DNA of 64,000 nt, taken from positions 62,001 through 126,000 of the forward strand of contig VBAC01000001.1 in the NCBI GenBank assembly GCA_005883305.1, written 5' to 3'. The position numbers and the translations under genes are program-made. The DNA comes from Alphaproteobacteria bacterium. GTDB taxonomy: Bacteria; Pseudomonadota; Alphaproteobacteria; Sphingomonadales; Sphingomonadaceae. Below, piece after piece: positions 57,009-63,354 of the stretch (the stretch's first letter is position 1; every line of letters begins with the position of its first letter). The notes below the pieces were generated by a model. The model was given only the letters and a program-made list of their open reading frames with translations. It had not been told where the DNA came from and searched no databases.

Positions 57009-58406
57009 CTAGGCGAGCGGCGAATAGGCTCCGCCCATCGCCTTGAACAGGTCGATCGCCGCCTCCAGCCGCTCCTGATGGGCGACGGCGCGGGCGTCCT
57101 CGGCCGCCACCAGCCGCTGCTCCGCGTCGAACAGGCTCTGCAGGTCGGTTTCGCCTTCCATATATTGCAGCCGCGCCAGCCGTGCCGTGACTCGCGCTTC
57201 CTCGACCACCTGAAGCAGCAGCGCTTCGCGGGCACGGGCGCGATCGACCGCCGACAGGGCGTTTTCCGTTTCGGCAAGGGAAGTGAGCAGGACGAGCCTG
57301 TAAAGCTCGACGCTTTCCACCTGCTGGCCGGCCGCGAATTCCAAATTGCCGCGCAGCTGGCCGCGGTTGAAGATCGGAGACAGCAAGCCTGCGCCGAGCG
57401 AGACGGTCGCGGCGAGCGGCCCGGACAGGCTCGCTGCCTGGCCGATGCCGCTGGCGCTGAGGCTGAGTTGCGGAAAGAAAGCGCGCCGCGCCGCGTCGAC
57501 GTCGCCCCCGGCCGCGTCGATCCGGGCCTCGGCGGCGCGGATGTCCGGGCGCCGCACCAGCAACTCCGGTGGCGGGGCGACCGCCAGGTCCGGCACCTGC
57601 AGCGCATCGAGCGGCGAGGGCGTCAGGACGAAACGGGGCGCTTCCTCGCCGATCAGCACCGCCATCGCGGTCCTCGTGCGGTCGAGCGCCTGGGAAAGAC
57701 GAAGCCGGTCGGTCTGCAGCTCGCGCACCTGGATGGTCTGAAGCCCCAGATCCACCCGCGTCGCATCGCCGGCATTGGCGCGCGCGCGGATGATCCGCTC
57801 CAGCTCCACCGCCTGTTCGATGTTCCGGTCGAGCAGGCTGATCCGCGCGGCAAGGGCGGCGCGCTGCACGTAGATCCGCGCCACGTCGCCTTCGACGATC
57901 AGCGCCGTGGCGCCCTGGTCGAACTCGGCGGCGCGCAGGCGGTGCCCTTCGGCGCGCCGGCGGGCGCGGTTGGCGCCGAACAGGTCCAGATCGAAGGAGA
58001 TATCGACTCCGGCGAAGGCGTCGCTGAAGTCGAACGGATCGGAGGTGGTTCGCTCCGTGCGGGTGCCGCTGAGCCCCGCTGACGCGGTGACCAGCGGGAA
58101 CATCGCGCCCCGGGCAATTCCGAAAAGAGCGCGGGCCTGCTGGATCCGCGCCCGGGCGACGCCGACGTCGCCATTCTGCTGCAATGCGCGGCCGATCAGC
58201 CCTTCGAGCTCCTGGGAGCCGAAGGCCGCGCCCAGATTGGCCGGATTGGGTGCCGAGACGCCACCGGAAGCCGCCGGGCCGGGAGCGGGCTGGCTCCACG
58301 CGGTGGAGAGCAGTTGCGGCGCGACCTCCAGCTCGACATGGGGCGCGCACGCCCCCGCCGCCAGCGAAAGCACGCACAAGCTCCCGATCCGCATCCTTTG
58401 CGCCAT
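57009..58406 (-). CDS. TolC/NodT-type outer membrane efflux lipoprotein
   Basis: The 465-residue outer membrane channel subunit has a lipoprotein signal (LCVLSLAAGAC with lipobox Cys20) and two OEP repeats with long helices (about 65-250 and 265-455), e.g. LGAAFGSQELEGLIGRALQQ and the NodT-type LLVRRPDIRAAEARIDAAGG. It is divergent, 150 bases apart, from an HlyD-type adaptor and a C39 ABC transporter, and so is the likely outer membrane part of that exporter. It may also serve RND pumps, but none is nearby. Confidence 0.9.
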   Translation of the reverse strand: MAQRMRIGSLCVLSLAAGACAPHVELEVAPQLLSTAWSQPAPGPAASGGVSAPNPANLGAAFGSQELEGLIGRALQQNGDVGVARARIQQARALFGIARGAMFPLVTASAGLSGTRTERTTSDPFDFSDAFAGVDISFDLDLFGANRARRRAEGHRLRAAEFDQGATALIVEGDVARIYVQRAALAARISLLDRNIEQAVELERIIRARANAGDATRVDLGLQTIQVRELQTDRLRLSQALDRTRTAMAVLIGEEAPRFVLTPSPLDALQVPDLAVAPPPELLVRRPDIRAAEARIDAAGGDVDAARRAFFPQLSLSASGIGQAASLSGPLAATVSLGAGLLSPIFNRGQLRGNLEFAAGQQVESVELYRLVLLTSLAETENALSAVDRARAREALLLQVVEEARVTARLARLQYMEGETDLQSLFDAEQRLVAAEDARAVAHQERLEAAIDLFKAMGGAYSPLA

Positions 58407-58556: not shown

Positions 58557-59789
58557 ATGAACAAGCAGCTTTTTCGGATGGAGGTCATCGACGCCAGCCG
58601 GGACAGGCTGGCGGGGACCGTCATTGCCGCCGTTCCGCCTTCCTCGCGCCTCTATACCGGCCTCGTCCTCGCCCTTGCCGCGGTCATCGTCCTTTTCCTC
58701 ACCCTCGGCAGCTACGCCACCACTGCCCGGGTGCGCGGAATCGTCGCCTATGACGCCGGAATCGCTCGGGTCTATCCGTCCGCCACGGCCGAGGTGAGCC
58801 AGATTCACGTCCGCGACGGACAAATCGTGCCCGCCGGAGCGCCGCTTGTGACGCTGTCGCTGGCCCAAGGCGCCGGCGGCGTCGGCGGCCAGCTCACCCA
58901 GCTCGCCGCTCAGGACGTCGAGCTCGGGCGCCAGATCGACCTCGGCGCCGACATCAGCAGCGCCGAGCTGCGCGGCCTTCAGCAGCAGCGGCAGAGCCTG
59001 GCGGCGGCGATCGGCTCGCTGGAGCGCCAGCGCCGAATCGCCTCCGGACAAGTCACCCTCGCCCAGTCGGCGGTGCGGCGCGCGTCGCAGCTCGCCGGCG
59101 AGGGTGCGGGCAGCCAGCGTCAGGTCGAGGACAGCCGCTCGGCCCTGCTCGCTCGGCAGGCGGAGCTCGAATCGCTCAACGAGCGGATCATCAGCCAGCG
59201 CGAGACTCTCCAGACCACCGAGGCGCAGATCGCCCAGCGCTCGCTCGAGGGCGGGCGAACGCGCTCGGTCCTCACCGCCCAGCGCGCGGCGATCGCCGAG
59301 CAGCGCGCCCAGCTGATGCGCACCGACCGGCTGGTTCTCACCGCGCCGATCGGCGGCGAGGTCGGCGACGTCAGCGTCGAGGTCGGCCAGCATGCCCGCC
59401 CCGACCGCTCGCTGGTGACGATCGTGCCCCGGGGGAGCCGCCTCGAAATCTGGGTCTATGCGCCCTCGCGCGCGGTCGGGTTCGCCACGCCCGGCCAGCA
59501 GGTGCGCCTCTTGTTCGACGCCTTCCCGTACCAGAAATACGGCGCCGGCCGCGGCACCGTGACGGCGGTGTCGCGAGTCGCCACCGAGCCGACCAATATC
59601 GATTCCAACCTCGGAATCGAGGAGCCGGTCTTCCGCATCCGCGTCCGGATCGACGAGGTCGCCCCCCGAATCCCCGCGGACCGCCGCACTCTGCGCCCGG
59701 GAATGACCCTCACAGCCAACCTCGTGCTCGAGCGCCGAAGCCTGTGGGAAGTGCTGTTCGATCCGGTGATCGGGGCGTTGAGCTCGTGA
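58557..59789 (+). CDS. HlyD-type periplasmic adaptor of a peptide exporter
   Basis: The 410-residue membrane-fusion protein has a cytoplasmic start (MNKQLFRMEVIDASRDRLAG), one membrane helix (about 33-51, YTGLVLALAAVIVLFLTLGS), a biotinyl-lipoyl-like half (VYPSATAEVSQIHVRDGQIV), coiled-coil hairpin (about 110-245) and a beta-barrel end. LTAPIGGEVGDVSVEVGQ closes the lipoyl fold. CvaA-type adaptors of bacteriocin exporters share this layout. It overlaps the ABC gene by four bases (GTGA), so the two are translationally coupled. Confidence 0.92.
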   Translation: MNKQLFRMEVIDASRDRLAGTVIAAVPPSSRLYTGLVLALAAVIVLFLTLGSYATTARVRGIVAYDAGIARVYPSATAEVSQIHVRDGQIVPAGAPLVTLSLAQGAGGVGGQLTQLAAQDVELGRQIDLGADISSAELRGLQQQRQSLAAAIGSLERQRRIASGQVTLAQSAVRRASQLAGEGAGSQRQVEDSRSALLARQAELESLNERIISQRETLQTTEAQIAQRSLEGGRTRSVLTAQRAAIAEQRAQLMRTDRLVLTAPIGGEVGDVSVEVGQHARPDRSLVTIVPRGSRLEIWVYAPSRAVGFATPGQQVRLLFDAFPYQKYGAGRGTVTAVSRVATEPTNIDSNLGIEEPVFRIRVRIDEVAPRIPADRRTLRPGMTLTANLVLERRSLWEVLFDPVIGALSS

Positions 59790-61936
59790 GCGGGATCGAA
59801 TGGCCCTGGTCGCAGCGTATGCAGCCGCTGCTTCAGTCGGAGGCGGCGGAGTGCGGGCTCGCGTCGGTCGCCATGATCGCGCTTCATTACGGCCACCGGG
59901 TCAACCTCAGCGGCCTCAGGCAGCGTTATCCGACCTCGATCAAGGGCACGACGCTCGAGGAGCTGATGGGCATCGCCGCCGATCTCGAGCTTGCCCCGCG
60001 CGCCGTGCGGCTCGAGGTCGACGAGCTCGACAAGCTGCAGAAGCCCGCGATCCTTCACTGGGACCTCAACCATTTCGTCGTCGTCGAATCGAGCGACTCG
60101 AAGCGCGCGACGATCCTCGATCCGGGGCGCGGGCGGCGGATCATGCCGCTGGCCAAGCTCGGGCGCCACTTCACCGGAGTCGCGCTCGAGCTGACTCCGA
60201 CCGCGGACTTCAAGCCCATCGAGGCGCGCAACCGCACGCGCCTCAGCAGCCTGTGGAGCCGGCTTTCCAACTATCAGGGCCCGTTCACCCAGATCCTGCT
60301 GCTCTCGCTTCTGATCCAGGTCACCGCCCTCATCACTCCCTTCTTCATCCAGCTGGTCGTCGACGAGGCGGTCGGGCAGGGCGACACCAACCTGCTCGCG
60401 GTCCTGTTCATCGGCTTCGCCGTCGTCTTCGCGCTCGCCGGAATCACCCGGGCGCTTCGCGACTGGGTGGTTCTGACGCTCGGCGAATCCCTGTCCTTCC
60501 AGCTCGGCGGCAACGTCGTGCGCCATCTCGTGCGGCTTCCGCTCGGCTATTTCGAGCGCCGCCACGTCGGCGACCTCCTGTCGAGGATCGGCTCGATCCA
60601 GCCGATCCAGTCGCTGCTGAGCAAGGGGATCGTCAACCTGCTGATCGATTCGGCCCTGCTGGTGACCACCGTGATCGTCATGTCGATCATCAGCCTGAAG
60701 CTGACCGGCATCGTCCTCGCCATGACCTTGTTCTACGTCCTCTTCGTCCAGCTCCTCTATCCCGGCCTCAGGCGCCGGACCGAGGAGGAGCTGATGGCCC
60801 GCGCGAATGAGGAAACCTACCTCATGGAGACGATGCGCGCGATCCGCGCGATCAAGCTCCACGGCCACGAGGCGATGCGCGAGAATGGCTGGCGCAACCG
60901 CTACGCCGAGGTCATCTCGGCCGCCTACAAGGCGCGTCTCGTCGACATCAAGATCGACCTCGCCGAGGACATGCTGTTCGGCCTCGCCTTCCTGATGACC
61001 GTCTATTTCGGCGCTCTGGCGGTGATGAGCCAGGAGCTGACGGTCGGCCTCCTGCTCGCTTTCCTCGCCTATCGAAGCAGCTTCACCTCGAGCGCGACCT
61101 CGCTGATCGGCCAGTTCCAGAAATGGCGCCTGCTCGGAGTCCACCTCGACCGCCTCGGCGACATCGTCGGCGAAGCCAAGGAGGAAATCCGCGCCGCCGC
61201 CCCCCGCCAGGGCCTGCTTCCCGGCCCGACCGTGCGCCTCGAGGGGCTGACCTTCGCCTACGGCCCGGCCGAGGCGCCGATCCTCGACAAGGTCGATCTG
61301 GAGATCCCCGAGGGCAGCTTCGTCGCCATCGTCGGCCCTTCGGGCTCCGGCAAGACGACCCTGATGCGGATCCTGCTCGGGCTTCTCCAGCCGAGCTCGG
61401 GCAAGGTGCTGATCGACGGCGTCCCGCTCGGCCCTGCCACCGTCGCCGCCTGGCGCGGCCGGATCGCGGCGGTCATGCAGGACGATTATCTGCTGACCGG
61501 AACGCTCGCCGACAACATCTCCTTCTTCGATCCCTTTCCGGACCAGCCGGCGATCGAGCACGTGTCGCGCCTCGCCCGAGTCCACGACGACATCGCCAAG
61601 ATGCCGATGGCCTATCACAGCCTGATCAGCGACATGGGCGCCGCGCTGTCCTCCGGCCAGCGCCAGCGCATCCTCCTCGCCCGCGCCCTCTATCGCGATC
61701 CCGATGCCCTCTTCCTCGACGAGGGCACCGCCAATCTCGATCCCGCGACCGAGGCGCAGATCGTCGCCATGCTCGGCAAATTGCAGGTGACCCGGGTGGT
61801 CATCGCCCACCGCCCCGCCCTGGTCGAGAAAGCGGACATCGTGCTGAGGCTGGAAGGCGGCAAGATCGTTCAGGTCACGCGTGCCGAGCGCGCTCAGCGG
61901 ACCTTCGTCACCACTCCGTCGCCGTCGACGACCTGA
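59786..61936 (+). CDS. C39 peptidase-containing ABC transporter (bacteriocin exporter type)
   Basis: The 716-residue exporter starts with GTG at 59786. The N-terminal C39 protease is intact: Gln17 and Cys23 in LLQSEAAECGLASVAMIAL, His96 in WDLNHFVVVE and Asp112 in ILDPGRGRR. Six membrane helices (about 165-430) precede an ATPase with Walker A IVGPSGSGKTTLM (about 517), signature LSSGQRQRILLARAL and Walker B ALFLDEGTANLD, where Gly follows the Glu. C39 transporters cleave double-glycine leaders during export. RTX exporters have a C39-like domain without Cys, so this one is for leader peptides such as that at 62974. Confidence 0.95.
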   Translation: MSGIEWPWSQRMQPLLQSEAAECGLASVAMIALHYGHRVNLSGLRQRYPTSIKGTTLEELMGIAADLELAPRAVRLEVDELDKLQKPAILHWDLNHFVVVESSDSKRATILDPGRGRRIMPLAKLGRHFTGVALELTPTADFKPIEARNRTRLSSLWSRLSNYQGPFTQILLLSLLIQVTALITPFFIQLVVDEAVGQGDTNLLAVLFIGFAVVFALAGITRALRDWVVLTLGESLSFQLGGNVVRHLVRLPLGYFERRHVGDLLSRIGSIQPIQSLLSKGIVNLLIDSALLVTTVIVMSIISLKLTGIVLAMTLFYVLFVQLLYPGLRRRTEEELMARANEETYLMETMRAIRAIKLHGHEAMRENGWRNRYAEVISAAYKARLVDIKIDLAEDMLFGLAFLMTVYFGALAVMSQELTVGLLLAFLAYRSSFTSSATSLIGQFQKWRLLGVHLDRLGDIVGEAKEEIRAAAPRQGLLPGPTVRLEGLTFAYGPAEAPILDKVDLEIPEGSFVAIVGPSGSGKTTLMRILLGLLQPSSGKVLIDGVPLGPATVAAWRGRIAAVMQDDYLLTGTLADNISFFDPFPDQPAIEHVSRLARVHDDIAKMPMAYHSLISDMGAALSSGQRQRILLARALYRDPDALFLDEGTANLDPATEAQIVAMLGKLQVTRVVIAHRPALVEKADIVLRLEGGKIVQVTRAERAQRTFVTTPSPSTT

Positions 61937-62867
61937 CCTTCATCTCGATCTCGACGATGGATTCCATCGGCAGCACCTGCAGCATCTTGCACAGGCGCGG
62001 GTCGAAGAAGTCCCTGAGGATCGGCGGCCGTTTCGAAGCGAAGTAGAATTCGGGATCGGCGCCGACGTCCGCGTCGGCGGTGAGCTTGAGCTCGTCCTTC
62101 CGGGTCACGTCCTCGATGATGCAATAAGCGTGGGTGATGCCGAGCCGGCGCAGGCTGTAGGCCCGGTGATAGCCGTTCTGGAGCAGCACGCGCGATCCGC
62201 TGCGGATCGCGCTCAGGAAGTTGGATCCGAAGCCGACCATGATGCCGACCATCGCCGCGACCGGCCCGCTGCTGTCGAGGCCCTCGATCTCTGCCGGACG
62301 AAGCAGCCGCGGCTCATGCGCCCGGAAATCGGTCGAGCGGCTGGTGAAGAGGAATCGGTCGCCGGAAAGGCGCTGGATCCGAACGTCCGGCAGATCGCGC
62401 TCGAGCGGCAGGCAGAAGCGGAACAGGGTCTCGTCGTCCGGCTCGGGCCCGAGCGTCGCGGCCAACCGGTCGGTGAAGCTGTGCTCGACGCTGTTTTGCG
62501 AGACCACCAGCTTGTCCAGCTCGACCCGTGCGAAGGTGAAGGGAAGATTGTCGAACGAGGCGCGAAACCACGGGCTCGCGCACACCGCGTCGACCAGCGG
62601 CTGAAGAGCGCCGTCCAGAGGCAGACATTCCACCTCTTCGGCGATTCCCGCCTCGCTCTGCTCAAGATCGTAATAGAGATCGTTCGCGGCCCGCCATTCC
62701 TCGGTCAGCTTTCGCGGATCGGCACCGCGCCCGCCCACGACCTTGTGGGCGACGAACTCGAGATAATCGCTGAGGTGCGGCTGGCCGAGCAGCCAGGCCA
62801 TCTCGCAGGCGGCTTCCTGCTTGGCGCTCGGCGCGGCGATCGGCTTGTGGCGCAATGCGGCCCCCAT
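61908..62867 (-). CDS. Protein of unknown function beside the peptide gene (possible ParB-like)
   Basis: The 319-residue protein has no signal peptide and no clear membrane helix. A segment LLQNGYHRAYSLRRLGITHA resembles the G-x-HR-xx-A-xx-xL-G motif of ParB/sulfiredoxin-like domains, preceded by FGSNFLSAIRSGS. The N-terminal third is helical (EAACEMAWLLGQPHLSDYLE). It ends 29 bases inside the convergent ABC gene and starts 107 bases after the peptide gene on the same strand. It may be an immunity, regulatory or peptide-processing factor, from position alone. Confidence 0.75.
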   Translation of the reverse strand: MGAALRHKPIAAPSAKQEAACEMAWLLGQPHLSDYLEFVAHKVVGGRGADPRKLTEEWRAANDLYYDLEQSEAGIAEEVECLPLDGALQPLVDAVCASPWFRASFDNLPFTFARVELDKLVVSQNSVEHSFTDRLAATLGPEPDDETLFRFCLPLERDLPDVRIQRLSGDRFLFTSRSTDFRAHEPRLLRPAEIEGLDSSGPVAAMVGIMVGFGSNFLSAIRSGSRVLLQNGYHRAYSLRRLGITHAYCIIEDVTRKDELKLTADADVGADPEFYFASKRPPILRDFFDPRLCKMLQVLPMESIVEIEMKVRSSTATEW

Positions 62868-62938: not shown

Positions 62939-62964
62939 GCCGGGGCCGCATCGGCGGCCCCGGC
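62939..62964 (-). terminator. Hairpin directly after the leader-peptide gene
   Basis: A perfect 11-bp stem GCCGGGGCCGC/GCGGCCCCGGC with a 4-base loop begins ten bases after the peptide stop codon and is followed on the minus strand by CCATTTTC. As an incomplete terminator it could give more peptide than downstream mRNA. Confidence 0.65.
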
Positions 62965-62973
62965 GACCGGGTC

Positions 62974-63141
62974 TTAGTAGCAGCGATTCTTCGACCGCTT
63001 GGACTTCGACTTCTTGCTCTTGCTCTTCTTCGACTTGCTCTTGTGCGAACGGCTGCCGCCGCCGCCGCAGCTGCCGCCCTTGCGGCCGCCGCCGCCCGCG
63101 CCATAGACCTGGCTCAGTTCGTTCGTGTCGAGATCGCGCAT
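62974..63141 (-). CDS. Double-glycine leader, microcin-like cationic peptide precursor
   Basis: A 55-residue precursor starts at an ATG seven to eight bases after GAGGGAG. Residues 1-15, MRDLDTNELSQVYGA, match the class II microcin/colicin V leader pattern (colicin V: MRTLTLNELDSVSGG): E-L-x-x-V-x-G-G/A with the processing site after residue 15. The 40-residue mature peptide begins GGGGRKGGSCGGGGS, then runs through HKSKSKKSKSKKSKSKRSK to NRCY. It carries 11 Lys, 4 Arg and 1 His and no acidic residue, with Cys25 and Cys54 that could pair. No known bacteriocin sequence comes to mind. The intact C39 exporter is about one kilobase away, which supports processing and export. It may be an antimicrobial or a signal peptide. 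Confidence 0.85.
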   Translation of the reverse strand: MRDLDTNELSQVYGAGGGGRKGGSCGGGGSRSHKSKSKKSKSKKSKSKRSKNRCY

Positions 63142-63354
63142 TTCGAGGACTCCCTCTTCATATCCAGCGGCTTCTCACCGCGGCCTCGAAAAATATCTCG
63201 GCCGGCGTCGTCCCGCACATGATTGTTATGGTTACTGAATCCCAAATCAGGACAGCCGGCCCGGATGTCCCGGCGAAGCCGGCGCGTCTTAAGACCTTGG
63301 AAAGCCCGGCGGACGTACACTCTGCTGTCCGGAAATGGTTTCCGGGGGATGCCG
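63142..63354. promoter_or_regulatory. Upstream region of the peptide gene and the divergent small gene
   Basis: A 213-bp divergent gap, AT-richer than its surroundings between about 63180 and 63250 (GATTGTTATGGTTACTGAAT on the plus strand). It must hold the peptide gene promoter; I cannot place it precisely. Confidence 0.4.

Follow-up and report, generated by a model that had tools for sequence, protein, structure and literature searches.

The window, by which we mean the whole analyzed stretch of 64,000 nucleotides, contains a 55-codon gene for a small peptide precursor and, directly downstream of it, a gene of 319 codons that we term orf319 (Table 1). A gene pair for a HlyD-type membrane fusion protein and a C39 peptidase-permease-ATPase exporter (58557-61936, plus strand) converges on orf319, and the gene for an outer-membrane channel is arranged divergently from that of HlyD (best model OEP, with NodT preferred over TolC). 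The precursor begins with a leader that the exporter is predicted to cut off behind its terminal Gly-Ala, according to the GG/GA rule given in excerpts of PMC9746304 and PMC10233263. The tail of 40 residues comprises 15 Lys/Arg, one His, 10 Ser, 10 Gly and 2 Cys, and Asp/Glu as well as Val, Ile, Leu, Met, Phe, Trp and Ala are all absent from it. The first-pass annotation had described a minus-strand ORF of 55 residues behind a strong ribosome site, with a leader followed by a Gly/Lys/Ser/Arg tail of 40 residues with two Cys and no acidic residue, and translation, ribosome site and composition count agree with this in every point. The other flank contains glycosyltransferase genes, a gene resembling those of ABC flippases and a further, second HlyD/ABC pair, roles that were assigned by eye from the translations. 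This second pair (L034:15678-18714, past the right end of the window) has no C39 match, and the MsbA-like transporter beside the precursor was no separate conserved neighbor at the 17 compared loci and fell in a large cluster of ABC transporters.

Table 1. Positions of the features in the window and, with locus prefix, in compared loci.
Feature	Position	Strand	Remarks
Precursor peptide gene	62974-63141	-	55 codons plus stop; from translation and family conservation
Leader MRDLDTNELSQVYGA	63097-63141	-	15 codons; C39 cleavage predicted behind GA
Core	62977-63096	-	40 residues; Gly/Cys part, then Lys/Ser repeat
Ribosome-binding site AGAGGGAG	63150-63157	-	read from the sequence; 8 nt before ATG
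11-bp G+C-rich hairpin	62939-62964	-	between precursor and orf319; z -2.28
orf319, putative tailoring enzyme	61908-62867	-	319 codons; directly downstream of the precursor at 15/15 loci
C39 peptidase-permease-ATPase exporter	59744-61936	+	PF03412, PF00664, PF00005; probably starts a few codons further downstream
HlyD-type membrane fusion protein	58557-59789	+	
Outer-membrane channel, NodT/TolC type	57009-58406	-	divergent from HlyD
ATP-binding and response-regulator genes (Rhodobacter)	L073:12487-14594		directly after the cassette; plasmid
ATP-binding and response-regulator genes (Paracoccus)	L074:12311-14567		directly after the cassette; plasmid
Candidate lasso precursors	L111:8901-9059, L112:7819-7986, L120:6203-6370, L121:6553-6720, L122:6448-6615, L123:6440-6601		orf319 homologue as extra gene

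In G+C-rich DNA, an ORF of this size could in principle have arisen by chance, and the low complexity of the tail would fit with such an origin, as would a whole-peptide search of 199 genomes of the family, which besides the peptide itself returned weak matches only. The 31 other genomes that matched (E-values up to 0.1, best 6.5e-4) were discarded as low-complexity matches by their span and E-value, not by individual inspection. Against a chance ORF stand the leader, the synteny and a third-position bias in three of five precursor pairs. The window has 204 ATG-started ORFs of 30-100 residues, and only one place, the precursor, has the leader motif together with an ATG; this combination was absent from 60 windows of 64 kb that were simulated with an order-2 Markov model of the window, and also from the 171,204 bases examined at other loci (L002-L033, L088-L107). 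In L064/L075, the closest pair compared, there are 3, 4 and 15 differences at codon positions 1, 2 and 3, and two further pairs lean to the third position as well (10/8/19 and 11/9/17); the pair window/L040 (16/13/15) and the tandem pair of L041 (4/5/6) have no such bias. On four plasmid records, four of five precursors are annotated as CDS for a 'hypothetical protein', and the one of Paracoccus is missing from an incomplete gene table. Conservation, simulated-window counts and codon-position bias thus leave an exceedingly small probability for a chance ORF, which for practical purposes is ruled out, and the 55-codon ORF is almost certainly a genuine gene.

C39 exporters cut after GA and release the peptide together with HlyD and an outer-membrane protein. 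The peptidase domain of the window exporter matches PF03412 with an E-value of 2.4e-31 and has the motifs ECGLA, HWDLNHF and ILDP for Cys, His and Asp. All 14 exporters checked contain these three motifs; they were located by pattern, except that in L073, L074 and L076, where the pattern missed a motif, the sequence was read directly. This exporter is the sole C39 match in the 3.03-Mb genome. The outer-membrane channel was found at 10 of the 17 compared loci, of which several end early. With a 15-residue leader ending in GA (15-18 residues and GG or GA in class II microcins), a C39 exporter with its Cys, His and Asp, and genes for a membrane fusion protein and an outer-membrane channel, the system has the features of class II microcin export. 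The earlier assignment of a GA-type leader with C39 exporter genes nearby holds, being supported by the matches to PF03412, PF00664 and PF00005 and by the leader alignment. As judged from leader, exporter genes and core composition, the description as a secreted cationic peptide appears well supported, and we consider it very likely that the precursor is a real exported gene.

The leader is conserved near C39 exporters of relatives, which was the check proposed in the first-pass annotation. The pattern MR[DE]LxxxE[LFIW]xxV[YS]GAG is common to 16 precursors at 15 loci, whose hosts are sphingomonads as well as plasmids of Rhodobacter, Paracoccus, Methylobacterium and Blastomonas, and M1, R2, L4, E8, V12, G14 and G16 are invariant in 21 aligned precursors. 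When the C39 exporter was the only query in public genomes, 19 loci were found. Among the six closest (62-77% identity), four (L040, L041, L042 and L052) have an orf319 homologue (52-62% identity) that is directly preceded by a precursor with this leader, and in L041 there are two such precursors in tandem. L043 has no orf319 match and possesses an oxygenase and a precursor of a second type, class B (L043:4453-5517), and in L045 the sequence stops within the exporter. The remaining 13 loci (37-45% identity, some truncated) have no such precursor in the available flanks. Near distant C39 exporters, other ORFs with GG leaders were noticed, which are Gly/Ala-rich and microcin-like in L047 (7996-8277 and 8745-8912) and L053 (4656-4970), and Pro/Thr/Cys-rich in L057 (8346-8531).

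The cassette is rare, scattered and partly plasmid-borne. Including its own genome, orf319 was detected in 4 of 397 genomes of the family (1 of 199 in an earlier single-sequence search) and in 8 of 26 genomes of the genus, all 8 of which have the precursor; among 385 genomes of the class, its own was the only one. Plasmid-borne copies were found in 4 of 72,556 records, namely those of Rhodobacter sp. CZR27, Paracoccus liaowanqingii, Blastomonas sp. RAC04 and Methylobacterium nodulans. The DNA surrounding the precursors is shared between G786, G787 and G784 and the loci L040, L041 and L042, which were therefore counted once. By eye, the trees of orf319 and of the exporter agree in broad terms (several nodes have weak support), which suggests that the cassette travels as a unit. 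Among the literature matches listed, there was no description of a cassette of precursor, orf319 and C39 exporter. The NCBIfam model RiPP_CPAC matched 1 of 21 precursors with 14.3 bits (E 0.035), far from the curated cut-off of 60, and matches to mersacidin (4 of 21, best E 0.065) and to the lacticin 481 type (1 of 21, E 0.078) were below significance and were rejected.

The constant partner of the precursor is orf319, which follows at all 15 loci after a gap of 45-123 nt. Only the four loci found through the C39 exporter test this link without bias, as the other 11 are the window itself and loci detected with orf319. When ORFs of at least 60 aa were clustered at 17 loci, with clusters in at least three loci considered and antisense shadow ORFs dropped by eye, the recurring genes were those for the precursor, orf319, the exporter trio and an oxygenase. 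At all 15 loci with the Ser/Lys-type precursor (class A), a leader/core precursor thus lies beside a conserved putative tailoring enzyme, an arrangement that qualifies as RiPP-like. For orf319, no significant match was obtained in Pfam, NCBIfam, PADLOC (three members) or the PDB. PDB matches to SRP54 (E 0.24 to 1.4) cover a stretch of 29 residues and were taken for chance, and the weak matches to Vault (0.15), DUF6761 (0.24) and TuaF (0.17) were set aside, as was a match of the L112 homologue to DUF7734 (0.009), which is below the cut-off. Invariant in the 15 cassette homologues are, among others, N62, D63, E116, D180, N216, R226, N231, G232, H234, R235, E259, R280 and D286, which could be catalytic residues.

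A phylum-wide profile search detected orf319 in 3 of 398 genomes, its own and two with distant homologues from another family, and in that family 7 of 198 genomes were positive, six strongly and one weakly; the weak one (E 4.5e-5, 86 positions) was dropped. The distant homologues have 27-34% identity, and N62, D63 and E259 are not retained in the two that were aligned. All six strong ones adjoin homologues of lasso B and C (Transglut_core3 and Asn-synthase-type, identified by Pfam for L111 and L112 and by tblastn to those of L111 for the other four) and a lasso-type precursor. The candidate lasso precursors end with AH[NS]HGTLWDG[VI]FPTTSP, in which the lasso reading of the core is our own. 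As orf319 accompanies precursors of two RiPP types that are unrelated to each other, it is better explained as an enzyme or chaperone that acts on precursors than as an immunity protein. It is likely, as far as gene context allows such a conclusion, that orf319 modifies the precursor, and the product would then probably be a secreted, cytosolically tailored, RiPP-like peptide.

Between precursor and orf319, the predicted folding is more stable than that of mononucleotide shuffles by 2 SD or more in 13 of 15 intervals, the exceptions being L052 and L074. In seven of the 15 intervals that were compared with dinucleotide shuffles, z ranged from -1.02 to -3.65, with six below -2 and a weak value for L041 (-1.02). 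A scan for intrinsic terminators called none in the window, so an intrinsic terminator at this position is not supported and we claim the hairpin alone, which may plausibly control stoichiometry.

Composition is what the cores have in common. In the 15 class A precursors, each taken from a different locus, they contain 10-16 Lys/Arg, 6-14 Ser, 0-2 acidic residues and 0-3 Val/Ile/Leu/Met/Phe/Trp/Ala; the repeat unit varies (KSKSK, KSHKK, STKKH, GGSKGGSK, GSRSGSR or SNSNSNS) and the composition stays. The unusual composition of the cationic peptide that the first-pass annotation had recognized is thus a trait of the whole family. The same is not true for the two Cys that it had stressed: the number of Cys varies from 0 to 6, and the Rhodobacter and Paracoccus members have none, which implies that there is no fixed disulfide, and a Cys pair was rejected as a defining feature.

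The same genome encodes a second precursor of 62 residues (MRDLHAFELSQVSGAG...; G000:C1:1330118 onward, L037:1501-1689, plus strand) that has a ribosome site and lies directly after a gene for a 264-aa 2OG-Fe oxygenase (L037:554-1348). A leader-only search found it with an E-value of 1.97, and it was accepted on the basis of leader, ribosome site and neighbor, and later also of the relatives L087, L043 and L086. With its SPCPP and NGYGNG motifs, it belongs to class B, which comprises the precursors of the own genome, L043, L086 and L087 and the second one of L075, all with an SPx[PA]P motif and an NGxGNG stretch and without a Ser/Lys repeat. As the window exporter is the only C39 match of the genome, it would have to serve both precursors. 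The oxygenase clusters with all five class B precursors and with four of class A (L052, L063, L064, L075). SPx[PA]P, a motif picked after inspection of related sequences, occurs in 9/9 precursors beside an oxygenase and in 0/12 others, and the looser motif P.?[PA]P in 9/9 and 3/12, respectively; the L082 precursor has PTPP, and no oxygenase match was found in that genome. PF13661 was above the cut-off in both oxygenases tested, in agreement with a 2OG-FeII_Oxy assignment, and H181, D183 and H239 of the HxD...H motif are invariant in five aligned members. The closest solved structures are OGFOD1, EGLN1 and TPA1, which are prolyl hydroxylases. Among 25 oxygenase matches in 28 genomes, the five strongest adjoin a leader precursor, and the 20 weaker ones do not (flanks of about 1.5 kb). 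In G781, the class A precursor has no adjacent oxygenase, and a class B precursor with oxygenase is found elsewhere in the genome. At the orf319-less locus L043, the two enzymes separate by precursor class. Prolyl hydroxylation of SPx[PA]P by the oxygenase would be the natural prediction; it is not applicable to the window precursor, as the core of the latter contains no proline.

What might orf319 do to the serines of the core? One possibility is that it is a peptide kinase with a ParB/Srx fold, which would phosphorylate the serines and thereby generate a silaffin-like phosphoserine/lysine polymer. NGxHR is invariant in the 15 orf319 homologues and in the two aligned lasso-type ones and is compatible with GxxR, the Box II motif of the ParB fold according to an excerpt of PMC12704722. 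In L052, the one member for which positions were displayed, the match to the SerK model covers this stretch (252-286, with NGYHR at 264), and hhalign to one ParB pairs it with GERR. Moreover, Ser next to Lys, Arg, His or Asn is frequent in most class A cores, and the lasso cores end with PTTSP. However, every match is below significance: the NCBIfam SerK model matched two of eight orf319 members with a best E-value of 0.063, and the hhalign probability was 5.9% with the chromosomal-type ParB of the genome alone, 0.15% with another one alone in a different alignment, and dropped to 0.6% with three ParB_N proteins together, the control with an unrelated alignment (C39 exporters) being 0.09%. The two L041 cores contain just 1-2 S-[KRHN] steps, and SerK, which acts on free serine, is reported to be inactive on serine within a peptide (excerpt of PMC5120207). 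With SerK, SbnI and sulfiredoxin (ParB fold; PMC12704722 and PMC5120207, in excerpts), orf319 would share a possible GxxR-type motif and a weak, non-significant similarity at this place. The resemblance is a possible lead and not a result, and a ParB/Srx-fold kinase appears clearly unlikely; that the modification, whatever the fold, is a phosphorylation of Ser we consider unlikely from the sequences at hand. The full idea that orf319 represents a new ParB/Srx-fold peptide-modifying family of two unrelated RiPP pathways, phosphorylating the serines of a secreted Ser/Lys polymer to a silaffin-like polyampholyte, with prolyl hydroxylation added in some relatives, is quite improbable as a whole.

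As to the function of the exported peptide, a true class II microcin or bacteriocin that kills relatives would account for the leader type, the GA site, the C39/HlyD/outer-membrane trio and the cationic core, and the patchy, partly plasmid-borne distribution is typical of competition genes; self-protection could then come from orf319, the modification or an unrecognized small protein. However, the cores are nearly free of hydrophobic residues, a composition unlike that of pore-forming class II microcins, the distant orf319 homologues adjoin lasso genes, and no immunity-gene candidate of at least 60 aa recurs in at least three of the 17 loci; a smaller or locus-specific one may exist. With 319 aa, orf319 also exceeds the known microcin immunity proteins of 51-216 aa (excerpt of PMC9746304). 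However, Bacteroides has bacteriocins with GG leaders that lack an immunity protein (excerpt of PMC10233263). From the first-pass interpretation, in which orf319 and the second precursor were not mentioned, export and the cationic peptide can be kept, and the antibacterial 'microcin-like' part not, as no immunity gene was found to recur at the 17 loci compared, and the family has hydrophilic cores and orf319 as its constant partner. A role as microcin is unproven, and on the present sequence evidence we regard it as unlikely. A secreted signal or regulator, i.e. a pheromone sensed by a partner system, could be suspected from the ATP-binding genes (presumably kinase-like, by position) and response-regulator genes behind the cassette in Rhodobacter and Paracoccus, but such genes do not recur in at least three of the 17 loci, and the cores seem too variable for a specific receptor ligand, which makes a pheromone very unlikely.

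The cassette shares with class II microcins such as MccV the 15-residue GG/GA leader, the C39 exporter, HlyD and the outer-membrane channel, and differs from them by the hydrophilic Ser/Lys core and the constant 319-aa partner, and in that no recurring immunity gene was found. The Gly/Ser-rich C-terminal tail of class IIb siderophore microcins (excerpt of PMC10233263) is a similar feature, but the window core is basic throughout, and siderophore-attachment genes are not among the recurring genes of the 17 loci. EbfG1-4/PteB of Synechococcus elongatus likewise combine small GG-motif proteins with a C39-type peptidase transporter and have a role in biofilms, not as antibiotics; the excerpted description (PMC4997328) mentions neither an orf319 nor an oxygenase. 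Lasso peptides with tailoring kinases or hydroxylases (PadeK, CanE; PMC9266682, in excerpts) also employ an extra enzyme on a linear precursor, and orf319 homologues adjoin lasso genes, but no lasso B/C genes were seen in the window cassette, and neither Pfam nor NCBIfam gave a significant kinase match for orf319.

We favor a pathway in which more precursor than orf319 is probably produced, as suggested by the hairpin between both genes in most loci. In view of its co-occurrence with the precursor and with lasso clusters, orf319 would bind the precursor and modify the Ser-rich, basic core before export, with Ser phosphorylation as a first guess, and where a relative encodes a 2OG-Fe oxygenase beside the precursor, SPx[PA]P may become prolyl-hydroxylated. 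The C39 exporter would then cut after GA and release the peptide with HlyD and the outer-membrane protein, a step for which the genes are present here. In the last and weakest step, the polyionic, hydrophobic-free peptide might bind to anionic surface polymers (polysaccharide, LPS or DNA) and act in matrix or surface biology, most likely not as a pore-former. We put such a surface or matrix role first, tentatively and by analogy, because no recurring immunity gene was found at the 17 loci, the cores are almost hydrophobic-free and the Synechococcus biofilm proteins provide a precedent.

Taken together, the locus encodes a real, conserved and probably exported Ser/Lys peptide together with a probable new tailoring enzyme. 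The cassette is compact and mobile and combines a microcin-type exporter with a peptide composition that is unusual for microcins, and orf319 represents a protein family that is named by no model in the searched libraries. As this family also occurs beside lasso genes, a single biochemical experiment could establish a new peptide modification for both pathways, and the cassette is a natural case for testing whether Gram-negative bacteria use C39-exported peptides for purposes other than killing.
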